Shown here piece by piece: positions 5,252 to 29,869 of a DNA stretch of 42,735 nucleotides. The notes beneath the pieces are model-generated. The model worked only from the letters and a program-made list of their open reading frames with translations, ran no database searches and was not told where the DNA came from. Made by a program: the position numbers and the translations under genes. Within the stretch, counting starts at the first letter, position 1, and every line of letters begins with the position of its first letter. The stretch is from an uncultured Pelagibacteraceae bacterium (GTDB lineage: Bacteria; Pseudomonadota; Alphaproteobacteria; Pelagibacterales; Pelagibacteraceae), in NCBI GenBank assembly GCA_902609065.1, contig CACLQJ010000007.1, positions 1 through 42,735 of the forward strand, given 5' to 3'.

Positions 5252-6376
5252 ATGAATAAAGTGCTCAATAAAATAATAATAGGGGGAACAAGCGCTTCCT
5301 TTAAGTCAATTCTTTGTATGCAAATAGATAGTCACCCGGATGTGAATGTCATTCATAGGCATGACAAAATTTTGCAAATTTTTATTAAGCCATTAATAAG
5401 TTTTTCCTCTTTTAAAGAAAAATATTTAAAGTTACAAAAAGAAATAAACTATTTAGTAGTAGAACAATCTAAACTTAAAAAATTATTATTTAAAAGTAGA
5501 GATAAAAATTTTTTTTTCTCTCCATTTTTATTAAGAAAACTTTTAATGGACCATTCAGGTTATTATGTAAACGAACAGTATTCTTGGATAAACAAAATAG
5601 GTTCTGACATTTCAAGTATTTCTACTGCCTCAAAAAGTTTTAAATTCGATTTTTATAAATATGATAAATTGATCTTTAGCAAAATTTTCAAATCTAAAAT
5701 TAAAAATTTTTCGCCGGAACTTTTACATGATATATTTTTGAAGTCGTACCTTTATTGCCAAAATAAAAAGATAAAAAAAAATATTGCTTTAATGGCACCT
5801 AATAATTACGAGTCGATTAATTTTCTTATAAATGAAAAATTTAATATTAAAGTAATATATTTGAAGAGGAATTCAGAAAATATAGTTTTAACAAGAGCCA
5901 TTCGAGAAATTGTAAATAAACAAGGTATTAAAAGTAAAATTTTAGTTCAAAAAGAAATTAACAAAAAAATTGAAAATATTTTATACGGAAACTTTTACAA
6001 ATCGGTCTTAGAACAGGAAAAAAAAATTGATAACCTTGAAAAAACAAACAAAAAAAAAATAAAAATAATCAAATCTGAGGATTTAATTTATAAAAATAAA
6101 AAAACTATAAAAGAGATAGTAAATTGGCTAGGTATAAAAAAACATAAATCTTTAGATAATCTTTCCTATGATAACTCTTTAATTAAAAATCAAAAAAAAT
6201 ATTTGGGTAAAATAAATGATGATGATTTTGTTATAGATAATTCAATTAGAAATTTTTTTTATATTCAAAAATATGGTTTTAAAAATTTTTTTTTTAATTT
6301 TAAAAATAAAAGTCCTAAAGTATTTATTTTTTTATTAAAGCAATTTGTTTATAAAAACTTAAAATTTTTAATTTAA
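5252..6376 (+). CDS. divergent sulfotransferase-family protein
   Basis: N-terminal IIIGGTSASFKSILCMQIDSHPDVNVIHRHDKI resembles the PAPS-binding 5'-phosphosulfate loop; IKVIYLKRNSENIVLTRA resembles the 3'-phosphate motif. Confidence 0.5.
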   Translation: MNKVLNKIIIGGTSASFKSILCMQIDSHPDVNVIHRHDKILQIFIKPLISFSSFKEKYLKLQKEINYLVVEQSKLKKLLFKSRDKNFFFSPFLLRKLLMDHSGYYVNEQYSWINKIGSDISSISTASKSFKFDFYKYDKLIFSKIFKSKIKNFSPELLHDIFLKSYLYCQNKKIKKNIALMAPNNYESINFLINEKFNIKVIYLKRNSENIVLTRAIREIVNKQGIKSKILVQKEINKKIENILYGNFYKSVLEQEKKIDNLEKTNKKKIKIIKSEDLIYKNKKTIKEIVNWLGIKKHKSLDNLSYDNSLIKNQKKYLGKINDDDFVIDNSIRNFFYIQKYGFKNFFFNFKNKSPKVFIFLLKQFVYKNLKFLI

Positions 6377-6377
6377 A

Positions 6378-7259
6378 ATGAAAAAAAATATATGCATAAT
6401 AGGTGGCAGCGGTTTCCTGGGATCACACGTTAGCGATCAATTTTCCAAATTTAAAAATTATAACGTAACTATATTTGATAAACAAAAGTCAAAATTTTTA
6501 CAAAAAGGTCAGAAAATGACAGTTGGTGATATAATGAATTTTAAACAACTTAAAAAAACATTAGTAAATAAAGATTATGTTTTTAATTTTTCAGGGATTT
6601 CTCAATTAGATCTTGCTTTATATCAACCTTACAAAACTGCAAAATTTAACATTTTAGGATTAATAAATATATTAGAAGCATGTAATTTAAATAAAGTAAA
6701 ACATTTTATTCAAGCTAGCTCTATTTACTCTTTAAGTAATGATGGTGGTTTTTATAGTTGCAGCAAAAGGGCAGCAGAGGATTATATTAAAGAATTTAAA
6801 AAAAAATATAATTTAAACTATACAATTTTACGATACGGATCTTTATATGGACCGAGAGCTGACAAAAATAACGGAATTTACAAAATCATAAACTACGCTA
6901 TCAAAAATAAAAAATTGGTATATGAGGGTAGTAAGTCAACTAGAAGAAATTATATAAGTGTGGAAGATGCATCTATTCTAAGTATGAAAATTTTAAATAA
7001 AAAATTCCAAAATAAGACTTTAATCCTGAAAGGGAGAGATTCAATAAAAGTATTGGATTTATTAAATAAACTATCAAAAATTTTAAAAATCGAAAAAAAA
7101 AAAATTTATTTTAACGAGAATAAACATCAATTAGGGCACTATATCAAAAGACCCGATCCATATAAAATTGACGAAGGACAAGAATTATACTATGAAAAAA
7201 AAATTAATTTTACTCAAAGTATTGAAAAATTAGTGTTAAGTATGAAAAATGCGAAATAA
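6378..7259 (+). CDS. NAD-dependent epimerase/dehydratase (extended SDR)
   Basis: GGSGFLGSHVSD Rossmann motif; YSCSKRAAEDY catalytic YxxxK; LRYGSLYGPRAD. Confidence 0.85.
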   Translation: MKKNICIIGGSGFLGSHVSDQFSKFKNYNVTIFDKQKSKFLQKGQKMTVGDIMNFKQLKKTLVNKDYVFNFSGISQLDLALYQPYKTAKFNILGLINILEACNLNKVKHFIQASSIYSLSNDGGFYSCSKRAAEDYIKEFKKKYNLNYTILRYGSLYGPRADKNNGIYKIINYAIKNKKLVYEGSKSTRRNYISVEDASILSMKILNKKFQNKTLILKGRDSIKVLDLLNKLSKILKIEKKKIYFNENKHQLGHYIKRPDPYKIDEGQELYYEKKINFTQSIEKLVLSMKNAK

Positions 7260-8001
7260 CCTAAGAAAAATAAATGAGATAAGAGAAAAATTAAAAAAGA
7301 AACAACCATCTTTTGGAAGTTGGATGCAAATTCCTCATCCTGAAATAGCAAAAATTTTAACAAATAATAAATTTGACTGGATTGTTTTAGATTTAGAACA
7401 TGGATCAGGTTCTATTATTGATATCGGAAAACTCAGCTTTGTAATAGGAGACTCAAAGTCTGCTTTTATCGCAAGAATATCTAATGAAAACTTTAAAAAC
7501 GTAGGTAGATTTTTAGATTTAGGTGTTGAGGGTTTTATTTTATCTAAAACAGAAGACCCAAATGAATTAAAGGTATTTATAAAAAAATCAAACTACACTC
7601 CACACGGAGATAGAGGTTATGGATTTTCTATTTCCAACGACTATGGAGTACAAAATATGAGTGAAACTTTAAGTTTCAAACCTTTAATTGTTGCAATGAT
7701 TGAATCTGTTAAGGGTATCAAAAACCTAAACAAAATACTTAAGGTAAAAGGTATAGATGCAGTTTTTATAGGACCATATGACTTGAGCCTATCACTAGGA
7801 ATACCTGGACAGTTTAGAAATAAAAAATTTATAAAAAATTTATCTTATATATTAAAAATGTGTAAAAAAAATAAAATTGCATGTGGCATACATATGGTGG
7901 ATCCAAATAAAAATGATCTAAAAGATAATTTAAAAAAAGGTTTTACATTTATAGCCTATGCGATGGATACAAGCTTTCTAAAGAAAATTAAATTAAAGTG
8001 A
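7249..8001 (+). CDS. HpcH/HpaI-family aldolase (class II pyruvate aldolase)
   Basis: FGSWMQIPHPEIAKILTNNKFDWIVLDLEHGSG; VAMIESVKGIKNLNKIL; VFIGPYDLSLSLGIPGQ. Confidence 0.88.
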   Translation: MRNNLRKINEIREKLKKKQPSFGSWMQIPHPEIAKILTNNKFDWIVLDLEHGSGSIIDIGKLSFVIGDSKSAFIARISNENFKNVGRFLDLGVEGFILSKTEDPNELKVFIKKSNYTPHGDRGYGFSISNDYGVQNMSETLSFKPLIVAMIESVKGIKNLNKILKVKGIDAVFIGPYDLSLSLGIPGQFRNKKFIKNLSYILKMCKKNKIACGIHMVDPNKNDLKDNLKKGFTFIAYAMDTSFLKKIKLK

Positions 8002-8741
8002 AAATTCTAACCTTAATACCCGCAAGGTTAAACAGTTCAAGGTTTCCTAGGAAACCTCTTAAAAAAATATTTGAAAATTCAATGATCCTAGAGGTTTATA
8101 AAAACGTGTCCAAAAGTAAACTACTTAAAGATATTTATGTTGCAACATGTGATAAAGAGATTTTTGATCATATTTCTTTGAATAATTGCGATGCTATAAT
8201 GACTTCTAAAACTCACGAAAGAGCAAGCGATAGGTGTGCAGAAGCTTTATATAAGATAGAAAAGAAAAAAAAAATTATATACGATATTGTTTTAATGGTA
8301 CAAGGAGATGAACCTCTAGTTAACCCAAAGATGATAGAACAATCTTTAAAGCCATTTAAAAATGATAAAACAATTAATGTTGTAAATTTAATTGGAAAAA
8401 TAAATAAAAAAGAAGCCATGAATAGTGATTGTATCAAAGTAGTAAAAAATAAATTTGATAAAGCAATATATTTTACAAGAAGCTTGATACCTAGTGGTGT
8501 TAAAAGTGGAGGAACCTATTTTAAGCAAATTTGCATTATACCATTTAGGAGAAATTTTCTTAAAAAATATATAAAATTAAAGCCCACTAATTTAGAAAAA
8601 TTAGAGTCTATTGATATGTTGAGAATATTAGAAAATGGATATGATGTCAAATTGGTAGAAACAAAAGAAATTTCAATTCCAGTCGATAGAAAAGAAGATA
8701 TCGTAAAAGTAAGAAAGTTTTTAAATAACCTAAAAAACTGA
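7998..8741 (+). CDS. KdsB-like CMP-3-deoxy-ulosonate cytidylyltransferase
   Basis: TLIPARLNSSRFPRKPL nucleotide loop; VLMVQGDEPLVNPKMIEQ; IDMLRILENGYDVKLVET C-terminal KdsB-type motif. GTG start overlaps the upstream stop. Confidence 0.85.
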   Translation: MKILTLIPARLNSSRFPRKPLKKIFENSMILEVYKNVSKSKLLKDIYVATCDKEIFDHISLNNCDAIMTSKTHERASDRCAEALYKIEKKKKIIYDIVLMVQGDEPLVNPKMIEQSLKPFKNDKTINVVNLIGKINKKEAMNSDCIKVVKNKFDKAIYFTRSLIPSGVKSGGTYFKQICIIPFRRNFLKKYIKLKPTNLEKLESIDMLRILENGYDVKLVETKEISIPVDRKEDIVKVRKFLNNLKN

Positions 8742-8760
8742 ATTTTTTGAAAAAAATTAT

Positions 8761-9435
8761 ATGACGATTTTTTACAAGAAAATTAACTTATTAATATCGA
8801 AAAAAGTTAAGAAAAAAAAAATTAATATGTTATTAACTGGGGGACAAACAGCAAAGGGTCTTTACAAATATTGGCAAAAAAATAACTACTTTTTGAAAAA
8901 TAAGAACATAAATTTTTTTTTATCAGATGAAAGAATTGTATCTACAAATCAAAAAAATAGTAATTATAATGCGTTGAAAAAAAATTTATTTTTTAATGAT
9001 GGTTCTATTAAGTATAGATTTTTCACATTTTTTTACGACAAGAAAAAAATGAAAACACAAATAAAAAAATATGAAAACGTATTACCAAAATATTTTGATA
9101 TAGCAATTCTCTCATCAGGCAATGATGGACATGTAGCGTCAATCTTCTCAAACAACAAAAATCAATTAGATACGAACAAAAAAATAGTATTTAGTTATGC
9201 TATTAATAAGCCAATAAAAAGAATTACGTTAAGTTTAAAATTCATCAAAAAGACAAAAATCATTATAATTATGTTTAAAGGAACAAAAAAAGGTAAGATT
9301 GCAGCAGAAACGAGGATTAATCCAAAAAATAGTAAATTTATAATATCAAATTTTTTAAAAAGTTATTGGATATTTGATAAAAAAGCACATACTGCGTATA
9401 GGAAAAAATTATTAAACAAAAACTTAAAAAATTGA
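8761..9435 (+). CDS. 6-phosphogluconolactonase/NagB-family isomerase-like protein
   Basis: LLTGGQTAKGLYKYW; FFLSDERIVSTNQKNSNYNALKKNLF; ILSSGNDGHVASIF. Confidence 0.8.
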   Translation: MTIFYKKINLLISKKVKKKKINMLLTGGQTAKGLYKYWQKNNYFLKNKNINFFLSDERIVSTNQKNSNYNALKKNLFFNDGSIKYRFFTFFYDKKKMKTQIKKYENVLPKYFDIAILSSGNDGHVASIFSNNKNQLDTNKKIVFSYAINKPIKRITLSLKFIKKTKIIIIMFKGTKKGKIAAETRINPKNSKFIISNFLKSYWIFDKKAHTAYRKKLLNKNLKN

Positions 9436-10385
9436 ATATTCTTGTTACAGCCACACCATTTTGTGAAGACAGTAAAGAGCCGATAAAGTTATTAAAAAAG
9501 CATAATTTGAATTTTATTTTCTATTCTAAAGATATTAATACCGAAACAAAACTTATTAATTTGTTAAAAGATAAAGATATAGTTATTGCTGGGCTAGAGA
9601 ATTATTCAGAAAAAGTTTTAAAAAAATCAAAAAAATTGAAACTTATATCAAGAGTTGGCATAGGTTTGGATAATATAGACTTAAAGGCAGCGAAAAAATA
9701 TAAAGTTAGTGTTACAAACACCCCAGATGGTCCAACAGCCGCTGTTGTAGAATTTACTATTGGTTTAATTTTTTCATCTCTTAGATTAATACATAAATCT
9801 TATTTAAATATTTTAAATTCAAATTGGACAAGGGAAACAGGTTTTAGAATTGAAAATTGTATTATTGGTGTAATAGGTGTAGGTAGGACAGGCAGTGGTG
9901 TAGTAAATTTGCTAAATAAGTTGGGTGTTAAAAAAATTTTAGTCAACGATATTAATTACAATAATATTAAATTTAAAAAAAATACTTTCAAAACAACAAA
10001 AAAAAAAATTTACAGGCAAGCCGATATAATTTCGCTTCACATTCCCTATACAAAAAAAACTCATAAATTAATTTCATATAAAGAGCTCAAGATGTTTAAA
10101 AAAAATAGCATTTTAATTAATACTTCAAGAGGAGGAATTGTCGACGAAAAAGCACTATATTCCGCATTAAAAAATAAAAAATTGTTTTCTGCGGCAATGG
10201 ACGTTTTTTTAAATGAGCCGTATAAGGGACAACTAAAAAAATTAAAAAACTGCTTATTAACCTCACATATGGCATCAATGTCAAAAGATTGCCGCATAAA
10301 AATGGAGACAGAAGCGACTGAAGCAGCAATTAGATTTATAAATAAAAAAAAATTAAAAAATTATTTAGGTAAAATTGAGCTGTAA
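9432..10385 (+). CDS. D-isomer-specific 2-hydroxyacid dehydrogenase (phosphoglycerate dehydrogenase-like)
   Basis: ISRVGIGLDNIDLKAAKKYKVSVTNTPDGPTAAVVEFTIGLI; GVIGVGRTGSGV; INTSRGGIVDEKAL; LTSHMAS. TTG start. Confidence 0.88.
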   Translation: MNILVTATPFCEDSKEPIKLLKKHNLNFIFYSKDINTETKLINLLKDKDIVIAGLENYSEKVLKKSKKLKLISRVGIGLDNIDLKAAKKYKVSVTNTPDGPTAAVVEFTIGLIFSSLRLIHKSYLNILNSNWTRETGFRIENCIIGVIGVGRTGSGVVNLLNKLGVKKILVNDINYNNIKFKKNTFKTTKKKIYRQADIISLHIPYTKKTHKLISYKELKMFKKNSILINTSRGGIVDEKALYSALKNKKLFSAAMDVFLNEPYKGQLKKLKNCLLTSHMASMSKDCRIKMETEATEAAIRFINKKKLKNYLGKIEL

Positions 10386-11101
10386 TGTTTAAAATTGAAA
10401 AAAACGATGTCATATGTGTTATTCCTGCAAGAGGAGGATCAAAAGGATTAAAAAAAAAAAACTTAAAGAAAGTTTTAAAAAAGAAATTGATACATTATCC
10501 TATTAAATATGCTTTAAAATCTAAACTAGTAGGCACAGTTTTAGTTTCAACAGATAGTAAAAGTATAGCCTCTGAAGCAATAAAAGCTGGTGCAATTGTG
10601 CCTTTTTTAAGACCAAAGAAGTTGAGTACTGATCTTGCGACGACTGAAGCCACACTCAAGCATGCCTTGTTAACTTTTGAAAAAAAAATAAATAAAAAAT
10701 TTAAAATTTGTATTTTTCTAACCTGCACCGATATTTTTAGAAAACCAAAATGGATTGAAAAAGGTATTGACATTCTAAAAAAAAAAAAAAATATAGAGAG
10801 TGTATTCGTAGGATTTAAAACACATAAAAATTTTTGGGAAAAAAAGAGAAAGTCAGGTTGGAAAAGATTGAAAAATAGAATGAAAACCTACTCCTCTAGA
10901 CAAGTAAGAAATTATTTAATTAGGGAAGATACGGGTCTTTTTTGTGCCTCTAGAGCTGAATTATGGAGAAAAGGAAAAAGAATTGGAGACAAAGTGCAGG
11001 TAATTCAAAATGATGACACTTTTAGCAGTATAGATATTCATAATTTAGATGATTTAAGATTAGCCAACTCAGCTATGAAAATTTTTAATGAAAAAAAATA
11101 A
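10385..11101 (+). CDS. NeuA-like acylneuraminate/CMP-sugar cytidylyltransferase
   Basis: VICVIPARGGSKGLKKKNLKKV; VLVSTDSKSIASEAIKAGAIVPFLRPKKLSTDLATTEATLKHAL; SIDIHNLDDLRLAN acidic C-terminal motif. Confidence 0.85.
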   Translation: MFKIEKNDVICVIPARGGSKGLKKKNLKKVLKKKLIHYPIKYALKSKLVGTVLVSTDSKSIASEAIKAGAIVPFLRPKKLSTDLATTEATLKHALLTFEKKINKKFKICIFLTCTDIFRKPKWIEKGIDILKKKKNIESVFVGFKTHKNFWEKKRKSGWKRLKNRMKTYSSRQVRNYLIREDTGLFCASRAELWRKGKRIGDKVQVIQNDDTFSSIDIHNLDDLRLANSAMKIFNEKK

Positions 11102-12449
11102 ATTAGTATCAATTATAATTCGAACAAAGAATGAGGAGAGTTGGATTTCTATTTGTTTAGATAAAATTTTTAAACAAAATTATAAAAATTTTGAGGTGAT
11201 AATTGTTGACAACAACTCAACTGATAAGACTATAAAAAGAGCTTTAGAATATAAAGTAAGAATTGTAAAAATAAAAAAATTTTTTCCTGGAAAAGCGATT
11301 AATCTTGGTATCAAAAAATCAAAAGGAGATATTATTGTATGTCTATCTGCACACTGTATTCCAGTTAATGACAATTGGTTGAAAAATTTAATCCAACCTT
11401 TAAAAAATAAACAAATAGCTGGATCTTACGGTAGACAAGAGCCCTACTCGTTTTCAAGTGATTTTGATAAAAGAGACCTGTTGAATACATTTGGTCTAGA
11501 TAAAAAAATTCAAAAAAAAGACTCTTTTTTTCATAATGCTAATAGTGCATTTACAAAAAAAATATGGAAAAAATTTCCTTTTGATGAAAATATTACAAAT
11601 ATTGAGGATCGAATTTGGGGAAATATTGTTATTAAGTCTGGTTATAAAATACTTTATAATCCTGATGCTAGTGTGTTCCATTATCATGGAATACATCAAG
11701 ATCTTGATCCAGTTAGATGTAAACAAATAGTGGGTATACTCGAGTCCTTTGGCGATGAATTTAAATCCTCTCAGATAAAAGAAAATAATAAAAATAAAAT
11801 TTTAGCTATTATACCTCAGCGTGATAAAACGAAAATTTATAATAAACAAAATTTAATTTCTTTTACTATTAATGAGATAAAACAATCAAAGAAAATTAAA
11901 GAAATAGTAGTATCAACAAATGATTTTAATACAAAAAAAATTTCTGAAAATCTTGGGGCTAAAGTGCCCTTTTTAAGACCAAAAAATCTCTCCGAAAGTT
12001 ATGTAGACTTAAATTCAGTGCTTAAATTTACTTTAGAAAAATTAGAAAGAAACCGAAAATTTTTTGATATTGTTGTAATTGCAAGTGAAAATTATCCCCT
12101 GAGAAAAAAAAATTTATTTGATAAAATGATAAGTAAATTAATTTTAGGAAATTATGAGACAGTAATAGCATGCAAAACAGAAAAAGGAAGTGTTTGGCAG
12201 AAAAATAGATTTAAAACTATCAATCTTGTGGATAATTCAATTCCATCAAAAATCAAAAGTCAAAAGACTCTAATTGCAAATACTGGATATGCATGTGTAA
12301 CACGACCTAATAAAATTAGAAAAAATGATATTCTAAATGGAAAAGTTTATTTCTATGAAATAGATGACCAAAGTAGCTTTTTCGAAATTCAAAATTTTAA
12401 AAACTTTAAAAAATTTGTCGATCAAAAATTAAGTTATGAAAAAGGTTAA
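11088..12449 (+). CDS. bifunctional-architecture protein: N-terminal GT2 glycosyltransferase fused to a C-terminal NeuA-like cytidylyltransferase domain
   Basis: N-terminal SIIIRTKNEESWISICLDKIFKQNYKNFEVIIVDNNSTDKT (GT2); from about residue 236 KILAIIPQRDKTKIYNKQN…KEIVVSTNDFNTKKISENLGAKVPFLRPKNLSESYVDLNSVLKFTLEKL, collinear with the NeuA-like protein encoded just upstream. Confidence 0.82.
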   Translation: MKKNKLVSIIIRTKNEESWISICLDKIFKQNYKNFEVIIVDNNSTDKTIKRALEYKVRIVKIKKFFPGKAINLGIKKSKGDIIVCLSAHCIPVNDNWLKNLIQPLKNKQIAGSYGRQEPYSFSSDFDKRDLLNTFGLDKKIQKKDSFFHNANSAFTKKIWKKFPFDENITNIEDRIWGNIVIKSGYKILYNPDASVFHYHGIHQDLDPVRCKQIVGILESFGDEFKSSQIKENNKNKILAIIPQRDKTKIYNKQNLISFTINEIKQSKKIKEIVVSTNDFNTKKISENLGAKVPFLRPKNLSESYVDLNSVLKFTLEKLERNRKFFDIVVIASENYPLRKKNLFDKMISKLILGNYETVIACKTEKGSVWQKNRFKTINLVDNSIPSKIKSQKTLIANTGYACVTRPNKIRKNDILNGKVYFYEIDDQSSFFEIQNFKNFKKFVDQKLSYEKG

Positions 12450-13503
12450 AACAACAATCATTGGATGTGGAAGAGTTGCTGAACATTATAAAAAAATAAT
12501 TAAAAGATATAAAATCAATAATTTATCAATAGTTGGTGTGTGTGATCTTGATGAAAAAAAAGCATTAAGATTCTCTAAGTTATTTAAATGTAACCATTAT
12601 AAAAATTACAAAAAAATGCAACAACTTGAAAAGCCTCAGTTAACCTTGATATTAAGCCCCTCAGGCTCTCATTTTATGCATTCTAAACATGCCTTAGAAA
12701 ATAACATAAATGTTTTAAGTGAAAAACCAATGACTATGTTACCAAATAATATTAGAAAACTAAATAAATTAGCAAAAAAGAAAAAATTAATGTATGGAGT
12801 AGTTTTTCAAAACAGAGAAAACTTAGCCATTAAAGCACTCAAAAAAGCTTTGAAGCAAAAAAGATTTGGAAAGATTGTAAATATATCAATTAATATTTTT
12901 TGGTGCCGGTATCAAAACTATTATAATGATGGATGGCATGGAACATGGAAAGATGATGGGGGGGTATTAAATCAACAAGCGATCCATCATGTAGACGTTC
13001 TAAATTGGTTATTTGGACCTATACATTCAGTTTTTGCTAAATCAACAAGGAGATTAAATAAACTTCAAGCAGAGGATACAATAATTGTAGCTTTTGAAAA
13101 TACCAAGGGTGTTTTGGGCACTATTCAAGCTACTACTGCAGCAAGACCATCAGATTACGAGGCTTCAATAAAAGTTTTCGGCGAAAAGGGATATGTTCAA
13201 ATAGGAGGAATAGCACTTAATAAAATTTTAGTTTGGAATTTTTTATCAAAAAGAAAGAGTGACAATCAAATTAAAAAAAAATATTCAGAAAATGTTGATT
13301 CTGGTTATGGCAATAGTCATTATATTGTCTTGGGTGAAACACTTAAAAGATTAATTAACAAAAATTCTAATGCTTTAGTAAGCGCTGATGAGGCCGAAAA
13401 CACAGGTAGATTAATTCATTCTATATATAATAGTTGTGAAAATAAAAAATTAGTTTTATTAAGTAAAAAATTATTGTCAAATAAACTTGGATTAAATAAT
13501 TGA
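12436..13503 (+). CDS. Gfo/Idh/MocA-family oxidoreductase
   Basis: TTIIGCGRVAEHYKKII; LSEKPMTM; GGVLNQQAIHHVDVLNWLFG. Confidence 0.9.
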   Translation: MKKVKTTIIGCGRVAEHYKKIIKRYKINNLSIVGVCDLDEKKALRFSKLFKCNHYKNYKKMQQLEKPQLTLILSPSGSHFMHSKHALENNINVLSEKPMTMLPNNIRKLNKLAKKKKLMYGVVFQNRENLAIKALKKALKQKRFGKIVNISINIFWCRYQNYYNDGWHGTWKDDGGVLNQQAIHHVDVLNWLFGPIHSVFAKSTRRLNKLQAEDTIIVAFENTKGVLGTIQATTAARPSDYEASIKVFGEKGYVQIGGIALNKILVWNFLSKRKSDNQIKKKYSENVDSGYGNSHYIVLGETLKRLINKNSNALVSADEAENTGRLIHSIYNSCENKKLVLLSKKLLSNKLGLNN

Positions 13504-14396
13504 TGTCAAATTTAGAAAATAAATTTCCTGGAAAAGATATAACAATTGAAGATATTAAAACTAAATTCCCTTTAGTTGCTAAAAAAACTAAAAATCATTA
13601 CTCAAAATTTAAAATTGCAGGAGTAGAATTTGGGGGCAAATTAATTCCAATATTTGCAGGTCCAAATATGGTAGAGACAAAATCTTTAATTCTTAATACT
13701 GCGAAAAATGTAAAAAAAATTGGAGCTCAATTCCTTAGAGGTGGTGCTTTTAAACCCTTAACTTTTCCTTACAGAAGCAAAAAATATAATGAAACCCGTG
13801 AAATTGGTTTACAATGGTTAAAAGAGGCAAAAATAAAATATAAAATTCCTGTGATAACAGAAGTTATGGAGGAGAGATTTATACCTATTGTTTGTGAAAC
13901 TTCTGATATTTTACAAATAGGATCAAGAAATATGCAAAACTTCCCTTTGTTAACAGCTTGTGCAAAAACAAAAAAACCTATTATGCTCAAACGACATTAT
14001 GGATCTTCTTTAAGAGATTGGTTGGGTGCTGCAGAATATTTAATGGTAGAAGGAAATAAAAAAATTTTATTATGTGAAAGAGGAGTTTCTGTACCTCATA
14101 CTCATAGAAATACCTCAAGATTTTTAATAGACTTACAAGTAGTGCCTGCAGCAAAAGAAATTACTCATTTACCTATAGTTATTGATCCGTCTCATGCCAC
14201 TTTTTGGAGACCATGGGTTCCCTCAATGACACTTGCTTCTATAGCTGCTGGTGCTGATGGGATAATGTTAGAAGTTCATCCAAATCCAACTAAGGCAGCG
14301 GTTGATCCTCTACAACCAATCAGTTTCAGTTCATTTAAAAAATTACATAAAGAAATGCAAGCAGTAGCAAAATCTATTAATAGAAAAATTGATTAG
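13503..14396 (+). CDS. 3-deoxy-7-phosphoheptulonate (DAHP) synthase-like, type Ibeta/KDOPS superfamily, with altered active-site motifs
   Basis: AGPNMVE…LRGGAFKPLTFPY…VITEVM…LQIGSRNMQNFPLL…LLCERGV…IDPSHATFWR…ADGIMLEVHPNPTKAAVDPLQPI follows the type Ibeta DAHPS layout. ATG at 13503 preferred over TTG at 13500. Confidence 0.85.
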   Translation: MSNLENKFPGKDITIEDIKTKFPLVAKKTKNHYSKFKIAGVEFGGKLIPIFAGPNMVETKSLILNTAKNVKKIGAQFLRGGAFKPLTFPYRSKKYNETREIGLQWLKEAKIKYKIPVITEVMEERFIPIVCETSDILQIGSRNMQNFPLLTACAKTKKPIMLKRHYGSSLRDWLGAAEYLMVEGNKKILLCERGVSVPHTHRNTSRFLIDLQVVPAAKEITHLPIVIDPSHATFWRPWVPSMTLASIAAGADGIMLEVHPNPTKAAVDPLQPISFSSFKKLHKEMQAVAKSINRKID

Positions 14397-16210
14397 TGTA
14401 CACAATAGGTATCCATTACGGTCATGATAGCAATGTATCTTTAATTGAGGATGGCAAATGTATATTTGCAATATCGGAGGAAAGACTAACAAGGGTTAAA
14501 TTTGACAATAGATGGCCGAAAGAAGGTATTAAATACATTTTTGAAAAATTTAAACTTAATCCTGAAAATATAGCTGCAGTAGCTGTAGTAGGAAGCTCAA
14601 AACAAGAAGAAACCTCTGGTGGATCAATAGAAAATATTTATAAAAAATTTGGCAAACAAACAAATTCATTTATTAAAATGATATCAAGGATAATCAACCC
14701 TTTTGATAATATATTTGATTTTTTAAAAATAAGAAAAAAGATTACTATTAGTTTTATTAAGAAAAAAATTTTCGAATTAGGAATAAAAAATGATAGAATA
14801 TTTTTTTTAGACCATCATTTTTGCCATGCTGTTGGTGCGTTTTATGCCTCAAATTTTAAAGAAGCTTTGATTATAACGTGTGATGGAAAAGGTGACGACT
14901 CCTGTCATAAATCATTCATTGGAAGTAAAAACGAAAATGGTTTGAGTAGCTTAAAATTTATCGCAAAATCTGATCCAATTGACTCAATTGGTTTTTTTTA
15001 TTCAACAATCACAGAATTCTTAGGATTTAAAAGAATGAGACATGAAGGCAAAATTACTGGCCTAGCAGCTTTCGGTACCAAAGATTATGATAATGATATA
15101 TCACCGATTGGACTATCCTCTAATGGATTATCATTAAAAAATAATTTGATAAAAGAAAAAATTAAAAAATCAAAATTTTTTCTTTTTTTAAAATTTTTTT
15201 TGCTTGATCCTAAAATGTTCTGTAAAATTTTATTTAATAATGCGGCTATAAAAGGGAGATTCTCACAATTAACATTAAAAAAATTTGTCTCTACTAAATT
15301 TATAAAAGAAGATAAAGCTAATGTAGCAAAGTATGCTCAAACAGTTTTAGAAAATACACTTAGGCAGCTTATTCAAAACACGTTGAAAATAGTTAAAGTA
15401 TCTAAAATATGTTTATCAGGTGGAGTTTTTGCAAACGTCAAACTAAATCAAAAAATTTATGAAATTACAAAAAAAGAAATTTACGTTATGCCAGGGATGG
15501 ATGATGGTGGATTATCTATTGGTGCAGGACTTTACATCTATGAAAGAAATTTGAAAAAACCAATTATTGAAAAGTTTGAAAATATTTATTATGGACCAAG
15601 TTATGATGAAAAATATATTTTAGAGGTATTGAATAATTCTGGTTTTAAATTTGAGAAAATTGAATTTATTGAAAAAAAAATTGCAGAAAATCTAGCTGCC
15701 GGAAGTATAGTTGGTAGATTTGATGGATCTATGGAGTGGGGACCAAGGGCTTTAGGAAATAGAAGTATTCTTGCAAATGCGAAAAATAAAGAAATAAATA
15801 CAATTTTAAATAATAGACTCTCTAGAACTGAATTCATGCCTTTCGCACCAATAATTCTAGAGGAAGATGCAGATAATTATTTTGAAAATTATAAAAAATT
15901 TAAGTGTTTTGAATTTATGACAATGACACTTAAAGTTAGAGACGGAAAAATTCAAAAAATTCCAGCAGTGGTTCACACTGATAATACTGCAAGACCTCAA
16001 TGTGTAAAAAAAAATATAAACAAATCTTTATATATTTTATTACAAGAGTATAAAAAGTTTAGTGAAATTCCTGTTCTTATTAATACAAGTTTTAATTTGC
16101 ACGAGGAACCAATTGTGTGTACGCCTAATGATGCTTTAAAAGCGTTAGAAAGAAACGCTGTTGATTTTTTAGCAATTGGAAATTTTTGGGTTGAAAATAA
16201 ATCTGTATGA
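14396..16210 (+). CDS. NodU/CmcH-family carbamoyltransferase
   Basis: IGIHYGHDSNVSLI; ISEERLTRVKFDNRWP; DHHFCHAVGAFYAS; CLSGGVFANVKLNQKI; GRFDGSMEWGPRALGNRSILANA. GTG start overlaps the upstream TAG. Confidence 0.93.
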   Translation: MYTIGIHYGHDSNVSLIEDGKCIFAISEERLTRVKFDNRWPKEGIKYIFEKFKLNPENIAAVAVVGSSKQEETSGGSIENIYKKFGKQTNSFIKMISRIINPFDNIFDFLKIRKKITISFIKKKIFELGIKNDRIFFLDHHFCHAVGAFYASNFKEALIITCDGKGDDSCHKSFIGSKNENGLSSLKFIAKSDPIDSIGFFYSTITEFLGFKRMRHEGKITGLAAFGTKDYDNDISPIGLSSNGLSLKNNLIKEKIKKSKFFLFLKFFLLDPKMFCKILFNNAAIKGRFSQLTLKKFVSTKFIKEDKANVAKYAQTVLENTLRQLIQNTLKIVKVSKICLSGGVFANVKLNQKIYEITKKEIYVMPGMDDGGLSIGAGLYIYERNLKKPIIEKFENIYYGPSYDEKYILEVLNNSGFKFEKIEFIEKKIAENLAAGSIVGRFDGSMEWGPRALGNRSILANAKNKEINTILNNRLSRTEFMPFAPIILEEDADNYFENYKKFKCFEFMTMTLKVRDGKIQKIPAVVHTDNTARPQCVKKNINKSLYILLQEYKKFSEIPVLINTSFNLHEEPIVCTPNDALKALERNAVDFLAIGNFWVENKSV

Positions 16211-17028
16211 AAAAAAATTATGTATTAATTATCGGAAAGTCACCATCAAAGGGAGCAAGATCCCCTATTTTATGGAATAAAGTTTTTAAAAAAAAAAAAA
16301 TTGATTGTAAAATGTTTGCTTTAGATATTCCAAATAAAAATACTCTTAAAAAAAAATTTATAAAACTTCAGAAGGATAAATATTTTTTAGGTGGAGCTAT
16401 AACTACACCCTACAAAGAAGATATTGCAAAATTACTGAAAAACAATTTAACACCTGGAGCAAAAAAAATTAAGGCAGTCAATTGTCTATTTAGAAAAAAA
16501 GACATTCTTTATGGTACCAACACTGATGGTGAGGCAGCAGTAGAAAGTTTGACAAATAATTTTGGAAAAATTAAAAATAAAAAGATTCTTTTAATTGGAT
16601 TTGGAGGCGCTGGCAAAGCAATTGCTTCATATTTAAGTTTTGAGCTAAGAAAAAAAAATTATCTTAATATCTTAGTAAAAGATAACAAAAAATATAAATC
16701 AAATTACGTATTTATTAATTATAAGAATTTAAAATTAAGAAATTATGAGATAATCATTAATGCCACTTCCATGGGTTTTGATAATAAAAAAAATTTATCA
16801 CCATTGTCGGAGTATGATATTTTAAATCTCAAACCTAATTGTTTTATATTTGATATTATCTATAATCCCAAAAAAACTAATTTCCTAAATATGTGTAACA
16901 AAAATAAATTTAAAACTTTAAATGGTTTAGACATGAATCTTAGACAAGCGGCAATAGCATTTAAGTATACAATTAGAGTGCCAAAAAAATATAAAATAAG
17001 AAAAATAATGGATATAATGGCAAAATAG
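16207..17028 (+). CDS. shikimate dehydrogenase (AroE)-like oxidoreductase
   Basis: GARSPILWN; GGAITTPYKEDI (catalytic Lys); KAVNCLF; YGTNTDGEAAVESL (catalytic Asp); LIGFGGAGKAIASYL; IINATSMGF; LNGLDMNLRQAAIAFKYT. Confidence 0.85.
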   Translation: MKKNYVLIIGKSPSKGARSPILWNKVFKKKKIDCKMFALDIPNKNTLKKKFIKLQKDKYFLGGAITTPYKEDIAKLLKNNLTPGAKKIKAVNCLFRKKDILYGTNTDGEAAVESLTNNFGKIKNKKILLIGFGGAGKAIASYLSFELRKKNYLNILVKDNKKYKSNYVFINYKNLKLRNYEIIINATSMGFDNKKNLSPLSEYDILNLKPNCFIFDIIYNPKKTNFLNMCNKNKFKTLNGLDMNLRQAAIAFKYTIRVPKKYKIRKIMDIMAK

Positions 17029-28858: not shown

Positions 28859-29869
28859 ATGAAAACGTCTTTAGTTATTACCACTATAAATCCCCCAAAC
28901 CAAAATATAAAAAAATTTATTAAAGGATGCATCTCTAATAAATGGAATTTAATAATTATCGGAGATAAAAAAACACCAAAAAACTTTAAAATTAAATATG
29001 GAAAATATTTTTCTTTTGATGATCAAATTAAGTTAAGTAACTCATTTGCTAAAATTTGTCCGCCCAATAATTATGCTAGAAAAAATATCGGATATTTAAT
29101 TTCAGCTGAACTTGGTTCTAATTTTATTATTGAAACTGATGATGATAATGGACCAAAAAATAATTATTTTAAAGAGATAAAATTAAATCACAGTGTAAAT
29201 CAAATTACAAACCGAGAATGGATAAATATATATGATTTGTTTAAAAAAAATAAAAAAGAAAAAATATGGCCACGAGGACTTCCATTAGAAGAAATTTTCA
29301 AGAATAAAATTTCTATACAAAAAAAAAAATTTTTAAATTATTTTTACTTGCAACAAGGTGTGGCTGAAATAAATCCTGATGTAGATGCCATATTTAGATT
29401 ACTTAATAAAAAAATTAATATTAAATTTAAAAATTACAAGGTTTCTTTAGGAAATGCAAAATCTACTTTTAATAGCCAAAATACAATATGGCATAAATCG
29501 ATACTTAAGCTAATGTATTTGCCTGTCACTTGTACAATGAGGTGTACAGACATTTGGAGAAGTATAATAGCACTACACATTTTGAAGATAAATAATTTAA
29601 AAATTCTTTTTTTTGGTACTAATATGTATCAAAATAGAAATCCTCATAAATTAATCAATGATTTTAAACTTGAGATACCAATGTATTTAAATAGTAAGTT
29701 CGTGTCTGAGACTATTGAAAATTTAAATTTAAAAAATGGTATAAAGTATTTTGATAATAATATGATTAAAATTTACAAATGTTTAATTAAAAACAAAATT
29801 TTCAAATATCAAGAAATGAAATACTTAAAATGTTGGTTAAAGGATTGTAATAAAGTTCAGAAGCAATAA
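28859..29869 (+). CDS. STELLO/DUF288-like glycosyltransferase-related protein
   Basis: SLVITTINPPNQNIKKFIKGCISNKWNLIIIGDKKTP…ARKNIGYLISAELGSNFIIETDDDN…WPRGLPLEEI. Confidence 0.75.
   Translation: MKTSLVITTINPPNQNIKKFIKGCISNKWNLIIIGDKKTPKNFKIKYGKYFSFDDQIKLSNSFAKICPPNNYARKNIGYLISAELGSNFIIETDDDNGPKNNYFKEIKLNHSVNQITNREWINIYDLFKKNKKEKIWPRGLPLEEIFKNKISIQKKKFLNYFYLQQGVAEINPDVDAIFRLLNKKINIKFKNYKVSLGNAKSTFNSQNTIWHKSILKLMYLPVTCTMRCTDIWRSIIALHILKINNLKILFFGTNMYQNRNPHKLINDFKLEIPMYLNSKFVSETIENLNLKNGIKYFDNNMIKIYKCLIKNKIFKYQEMKYLKCWLKDCNKVQKQ

Follow-up and report, generated by a model that had tools for sequence, protein, structure and literature searches.

A DAHP-synthase-like clade with altered metal and acceptor sites, encoded in a conserved CMP-sugar gene module of SAR11 and other bacteria

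Introduction

The type Ibeta DAHP synthases (TIGR01361), including those of Pyrococcus furiosus (1zco), Thermotoga maritima (1rzm) and Aeropyrum pernix (1vs1), are TIM-barrel enzymes with a Cys/His/Glu/Asp metal site and a KPRTS motif for erythrose-4-phosphate (E4P). The acceptor phosphate is gripped by Arg and Thr/Ser of KPRTS or, in the KDO8P synthases, of KANRSS. We know of no natural DAHP-synthase branch that is metal-independent. KDO8P synthase can dispense with Cys plus metal when Asn takes their place, and the role of the metal is to position the substrates, not to act itself as an activator (PMC3052366). The NeuB pathways of sialic, legionaminic and pseudaminic acid combine PEP condensation, a NeuA/PseF-like CMP-sugar step and transfer into surface polysaccharide.

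The gene described here lies in a 42,735-nucleotide stretch of DNA (the window; contig CACLQJ010000007.1) from an uncultured Pelagibacteraceae bacterium. The superfamily and the pathway logic are known; the clade, the state of its metal site within the Ibeta branch and the gene combination are new, and neither an Asn-type or metal-independent DAHP synthase nor a DAHP-synthase/AroE/cytidylyltransferase cluster was found described in the open-access literature. The explanation that we favour, and consider probable as a whole, is that the enzyme derives from a type Ibeta DAHP synthase, no longer feeds the shikimate pathway, and is a probably metal-independent PEP-aldol synthase leading to an undescribed CMP-activated 3-deoxy-2-ulosonic acid on a surface glycan.

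Results and Discussion

Family assignment of the synthase

The synthase ORF extends over 13500-14396 on the forward strand and begins with TTG; translation from an in-frame ATG at 13503 yields a protein of 297 amino acids, and residues are numbered from this ATG (Table 1). DAHP_synth_1 was the sole domain found in the Pfam scan, which returned no NeuB domain (PF03102). The protein passed the type Ibeta model narrowly (272.2 bits versus a cut-off of 267.75) and failed the KDO8P synthase model TIGR01362 (84.2 bits versus 314). Its best PDB sequence matches were Pyrococcus DAHP synthases, and its identity to type Ibeta enzymes is about 30-44%. The AlphaFold model (mean pLDDT 88.6) had the DAHP synthase 1vs1 as its top PDB match in Foldseek (E 1.1e-29, TM 0.82/0.90), and engineered C11N structures, such as 2nwr, which bear on the Asn-for-Cys solution of the KDO8P synthases, were among the other structure matches.

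The passing of the TIGR01361 cut-off counts against the explanation favoured here. These sequence and fold affinities, and the fact that the synthase travels with an AroE homologue, would also suit an ordinary extra DAHP synthase isozyme that, with an extra AroE, raises the output of the shikimate pathway or frees it from regulation, perhaps to supply aromatic precursors; this reading is weighed below with the AroE data. Acceptance of the protein as a DAHP synthase by TIGR01361 is probably a misannotation. Automatic annotation by this model would file the synthase under aromatic amino acid synthesis, so that pathway reconstructions for the genomes concerned are probably wrong at this point.

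Table 1. Coordinates of the module genes and of the active-site features of the synthase within the window.
Feature	Position	Strand	Evidence
Putative CMP-acidic-sugar synthetase, NeuA/PseF-like, motif ARGGSKG..KN intact	10385..11101	+	PF02348 3.4e-19
GT2 glycosyltransferase fused to cytidylyltransferase-like domain, ARGGSKG degenerate	11088..12449	+	PF00535 4.6e-27, PF02348 2.9e-4
Gfo/Idh/MocA dehydrogenase, WlbA-like (EKP; WHGTW..DGGV.NQQ..H.D)	12436..13503	+	PDB 3q2i 2.5e-56, 3q2k 1.1e-51
DAHP-synthase-like putative PEP-aldol synthase, GPN clade	13503..14396	+	PF00793 6.8e-52; TIGR01361; tree; model
Asn55 (AAT) for Cys metal ligand, motif GPNMVE	13665..13667	+	Asn 56/56 clade, Cys 10/10 Ibeta
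KPLTFPYR (K84-R91), changed acceptor motif; KPRTS Arg/Ser replaced by Leu86/Phe88; Arg91 inserted	13752..13775	+	alignment, 56 sequences
KRHYGSSLRD (K163-D172), PEP-side Lys/Arg retained; Arg171-Asp172 clade-specific	13989..14018	+	alignment
HTH (199-201), clade-specific motif	14097..14105	+	56/56; model pLDDT <50 at 198-202, low confidence
DPSHATF (228-234), His231 retained; Phe234 for otherwise invariant Gly	14184..14204	+	alignment
Glu257 (EVHP), metal-ligand position retained	14271..14273	+	56/56
Asp268 (AVDPLQP) retained; altered loop V-D-P-L-Q	14304..14306	+	Asp 56/56, Pro269 55/56
NodU-type carbamoyltransferase, accessory	14396..16210	+	PF16861, PF02543
AroE (shikimate dehydrogenase) paralogue, motif PSKGARSP	16207..17028	+	TIGR00507; module clade 100/100

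A distinct clade and its distribution

A scan of the genome collection for relatives of the synthase found 126, of which 80 were kept. In the maximum-likelihood tree, the clade of the synthase was monophyletic (100/99) and stood beside the type Ibeta DAHP synthases, far from the KDO8P synthases; membership in the latter group was rejected on this tree. The closest neighbour of the clade, on a long branch, is a divergent DAHP-synthase relative from a SAR11 genome (G295; locus L016, 1426-2280), in which the motifs GPCSVE and KPCTYPVR keep the Cys and lack the acceptor Arg. The long branch makes this join unsure; if this protein and the Asn clade are true sisters, the change at the acceptor motif may have preceded that at the metal site.

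The window has its nearest relative, with 94% identity, in Candidatus Pelagibacter ubique HTCC9565, which places it in SAR11. The synthase was detected at an identity of at least 56% in 12 of 297 genomes of the order, including its own (an assembly of 743 kb, 62% complete), and in three further genomes among 190 of the class. Carriers of the clade comprise SAR11, Prochlorococcus (including the isolate MIT 9302), SAR86, SAR116, SAR324, Thalassobaculum, Nisaea, Azospirillum halopraeferens, Roseibium and others; some host labels from metagenome-assembled genomes (MAGs) may be wrong, while those of isolates are not in doubt. A phage or plasmid origin was rejected, since the best phage, plasmid and viral-contig matches reach only ~40% identity and those inspected have the Cys.

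The metal position and the acceptor motif

For the active-site alignment, 56 clade members, down to 55% identity, were compared with 10 type Ibeta DAHP synthases and 18 KDO8P synthases. The PEP-side residues and motifs KR, IG.RN.QN, CERG, DPSH and E.HP are common to the synthase and the type Ibeta enzymes. In contrast, the metal site is incomplete throughout the clade: the Cys is Asn55 in all 56 members, with the other three ligands kept. The E4P motif is likewise absent, its Arg being Leu86 and its Ser Phe88 in 56/56; the surrounding KPLTFPYR is otherwise invariant except for Thr87, which is Ser in eight sequences. At these three sites the type Ibeta enzymes have Cys (10/10), Arg (10/10) and Ser (9/10), and the KDO8P synthases 14 Cys and 4 Asn, Arg (18/18) and Ser (18/18). 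Position 234 is Phe in every clade member versus Gly in all 10 and all 18 members of the comparison sets, and Arg91 and Trp238 are also invariant in the 56. Altogether, 61 positions are invariant in the clade and 15 of these residues were never seen in the 10 type Ibeta enzymes; most of the 15 belong to motifs adjoining catalytic residues (N55, L86, F88, R91, E97, R171, D172, H199, H201, S205, F234, W238 and L270).

The initial annotation had reported an Asn in place of the GPCxVE Cys at about 13665, KPLTF at about 13752-13766, and a remaining DPSH His, EVHP Glu and downstream Asp, all of which were borne out at the exact coordinates of Table 1. It had also proposed alignment and structure prediction against the type Ibeta and KDO8P enzymes; neither the alignment nor the AlphaFold model placed an alternative Cys at the metal site. 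Because the 56 clade members share the changes, neither a sequencing error nor an isolated aberrant gene can explain them.

Metal independence of the synthase, which the initial annotation had proposed, appears plausible: the non-metal KDO8P synthases show exactly this combination of an Asn at the Cys position with retained His, Glu and Asp (PMC3052366). The loop around the Asp, VDPLQ, is unlike the CDGP of those enzymes, and this difference counts against the favoured explanation. Invariant His231, Glu257 and Asp268 might still hold a metal together with water, Asn55 serving as a weak ligand, in an enzyme with a new acceptor and pathway. We regard such continued metal use as possible but doubtful, in that the non-metal KDO8P synthases keep the equivalent residues too and the complete fixation of the Asn accords with a functional replacement (PMC3052366).

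The AroE paralogue and the housekeeping copies

The AroE paralogue of the module scored 151.5 bits, under the TIGR00507 cut-off of 200.2. Among 73 module copies, Lys65, Asn86, Asp102 and Gln244 were present in every sequence, whereas Ser14 was replaced by Ala in 70 and Asn59 was lost in all. We take Lys65 and Asp102 to be the catalytic pair, which is thus kept as in shikimate dehydrogenase, and Ser14 and Asn59 to be shikimate contacts, which are not. The module copies, including those of Prochlorococcus and SAR86, form one clade apart from the housekeeping AroE of the same genomes; a single clade across such hosts is the mark of a module passed on as one block. In three SAR11 genomes that lack the synthase clade (G003, G005 and G013), one full AroE is accompanied by weak partial matches only.

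Elsewhere, the source genome encodes a class II DAHP synthase (682.6 bits), a true AroE (236.6 bits) and, between pyrG-like and eno-like genes, a Cys-type KDO8P synthase (kdsA). The separate housekeeping genes exclude a lone shikimate isozyme. An extra isozyme working with an extra AroE is, in our estimate, very unlikely: the genomes already possess full housekeeping copies, the whole clade has lost the Cys ligand and, from the E4P motif, Arg and Ser, the AroE partner is devoid of the shikimate-contact residues, no AroB, AroD or other shikimate gene occurs among the recurrent neighbours, and it is CMP-sugar and glycosyltransferase genes that regularly accompany the synthase.

A conserved five-gene module

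The initial annotation had handled the synthase as a lone enzyme, whereas it belongs to a conserved module of five genes, usually in the order cytidylyltransferase, GT2 fusion, dehydrogenase, synthase and AroE. Same-strand genes within five of the synthase were counted at 75 loci. A cytidylyltransferase or the GT2 fusion was found at 64, so that the putative PEP-aldol synthase is linked to a CMP-acidic-sugar synthetase, as in a CMP-ulosonate pathway, at 64/75 loci; AroE-like genes occurred at 63 and WlbA-like (Gfo/Idh/MocA) genes at 61, and the next family at 11. The synthase adjoined the module AroE in six of the seven genomes followed up outside SAR11. In the seventh, Azospirillum halopraeferens DSM 3675, the synthase (L091) lies apart from the other module genes and a GARSP-type AroE is on another contig (L199), indicating that parts of the module persist together without linkage. 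As much can be learned from the altered AroE, the dehydrogenase and the cytidylyltransferase as from the two motifs of the synthase.

Among PDB entries the dehydrogenase is closest to 3q2i and 3q2k, which we take to be WlbA, the UDP-GlcNAcA 3-dehydrogenase. It shares with them the Gfo/Idh/MocA fold, EKP and the pattern W.GTW..DGG..NQ...H..D, and differs in having WHGTW for WRGTW, NQQAIH for MNQASH, and different partners; the WlbA structures are cited in PMC10622841. The cytidylyltransferase resembles NeuA/PseF, not KdsB; NeuA was its best PDB match, and it scored 117 bits with the PseF model, under the cut-off of 205.7. At Thalassobaculum-type loci, the second domain of the GT2 fusion seems to be free-standing (226-232 amino acids).

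The Asn/His/Glu/Asp site of the non-metal KDO8P synthases (PMC3052366), together with a KdsB-like gene at 7998-8741 in the same island, could suggest that PEP is joined to a phosphorylated pentose (A5P or R5P) to form an octulosonate phosphate, so that Kdo or an epimer of it could be made in a second way. Such a Kdo-type role is unlikely, given that the synthase branches with the DAHP synthases and is 21-26% identical to the KDO8P synthases, that the phosphate-binding Arg and Ser of KANRSS are lost as well, that the genome has a normal kdsA, and that the cytidylyltransferase is of the other type, KdsB being no conserved neighbour. Nor was a phosphatase found among the recurrent neighbours examined, which is also compatible with an unphosphorylated acceptor, although no proof of one.

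That a DAHP-synthase homologue is paired with a homologue of AroE also recalls the shikimate and aminoshikimate pathways, and the product might be a shikimate-like carbocyclic acid or other cyclitol, decorated or activated, rather than a sugar ulosonate. This appears most improbable: no dehydroquinate-synthase-like ring closer occurs among the recurrent neighbours, and the NeuA/PseF type of the cytidylyltransferase speaks for a 2-ulosonic acid.

Proposed pathway

A changed acceptor and pathway are well supported by the clade-wide rebuilt motif, the separate housekeeping DAHP synthase and AroE, and the conserved CMP-sugar neighbourhood; the initial annotation had already proposed a DAHPS-like enzyme of changed acceptor specificity. 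The Asn solution known from KDO8P synthase and the altered phosphate motif lead us to infer an aldol condensation in which PEP reacts, without a metal, with an acceptor not of the E4P type. The synthase would thus condense PEP with an acceptor other than E4P, probably without a divalent metal, Asn55 holding PEP and acceptor as in the non-metal KDO8P synthases. The end group of the acceptor would not be gripped as that of E4P is; a new contact, perhaps to an acidic or unphosphorylated acceptor, might be made by Arg91, Arg171 and the HTH motif.

The WlbA-like dehydrogenase and the AroE paralogue may carry out oxidations and reductions at hydroxyl groups of the acceptor or of the product, the cytidylyltransferase would form the CMP-sugar (a CMP-ulosonate), and the GT2 fusion is the likely transferase that would place the resulting 3-deoxy-2-ulosonic acid into a strain-variable surface polysaccharide. 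A separate clade with a rebuilt active site and conserved sugar genes probably signifies an undescribed acidic cell-surface sugar. The fullest version, in which a natural metal-independent branch of the DAHP-synthase family uses an unphosphorylated or acidic acceptor and a synthase/WlbA-like/AroE-like route yields a new CMP-3-deoxy-2-ulosonic acid, is offered tentatively.

Although its logic is that of the NeuB pathways, the module differs from them in a synthase of PF00793 rather than PF03102 and in having no conserved NeuC or legionaminic/pseudaminic acid precursor genes. No obvious gene for supplying the acceptor (NeuC-type hydrolase, kinase or isomerase) is conserved in the module, and nothing among the flanking genes in a Rhodospirillales MAG, Thalassobaculum, Nisaea, Azospirillum and Roseibium hinted at what the acceptor might be. 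The 8-epipseudaminate enzymes EpaA/EpaB (PMC12053666) follow a similar logic and were rejected as a counterpart, being another pair (a cytidylyltransferase-aldo-keto-reductase fusion and an SDR).

If correct, the favoured explanation would mean that the DAHP/KDO8P synthase superfamily lost its metal independently for a second time, offering a natural test of the purpose of the metal, and that the pathway occurs in some of the most abundant bacteria of the ocean. The module points to a new acidic sugar on the surface of SAR11 and Prochlorococcus, the site of phage and grazer recognition.

The surrounding island

The island around the module contains many glycosyltransferases, epimerases and one aminotransferase; strain-variable O-chain islands of a similar kind are known in Pelagibacter (PMC4033161). 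In the window and in HTCC9565 the carbamoyltransferase lies between synthase and AroE, and it adjoins the synthase only there and at a few other loci; its insertion suggests a carbamoylated sugar in these two strains. Upstream, a sub-operon at 5252-10385, common to HTCC9565, encodes a 374-aa protein, an NAD epimerase, an HpcH/HpaI pyruvate aldolase, the KdsB-like CMP-Kdo synthetase, a 6-phosphogluconolactonase-like protein and a 2-hydroxyacid dehydrogenase. The aldolase and this second KdsB suggest another 3-deoxy-ulosonate, made through pyruvate aldol addition.

At other loci, CMP-sugar synthetase-methyltransferase domain fusions of ~580 amino acids occur near the module (L036, 11943-13691; similar in L044 and L045). 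In a Thiotrichaceae MAG (L068, 4899-5945), and at a few other loci, a true NeuB nonulosonate synthase is encoded a few kb from the synthase, showing that both synthase types can share an island. Finally, the window encodes at 28859-29869 a protein whose C-terminal part matches PF03385 (8e-13), the STELLO glycosyltransferases, a family that has its name from plants.
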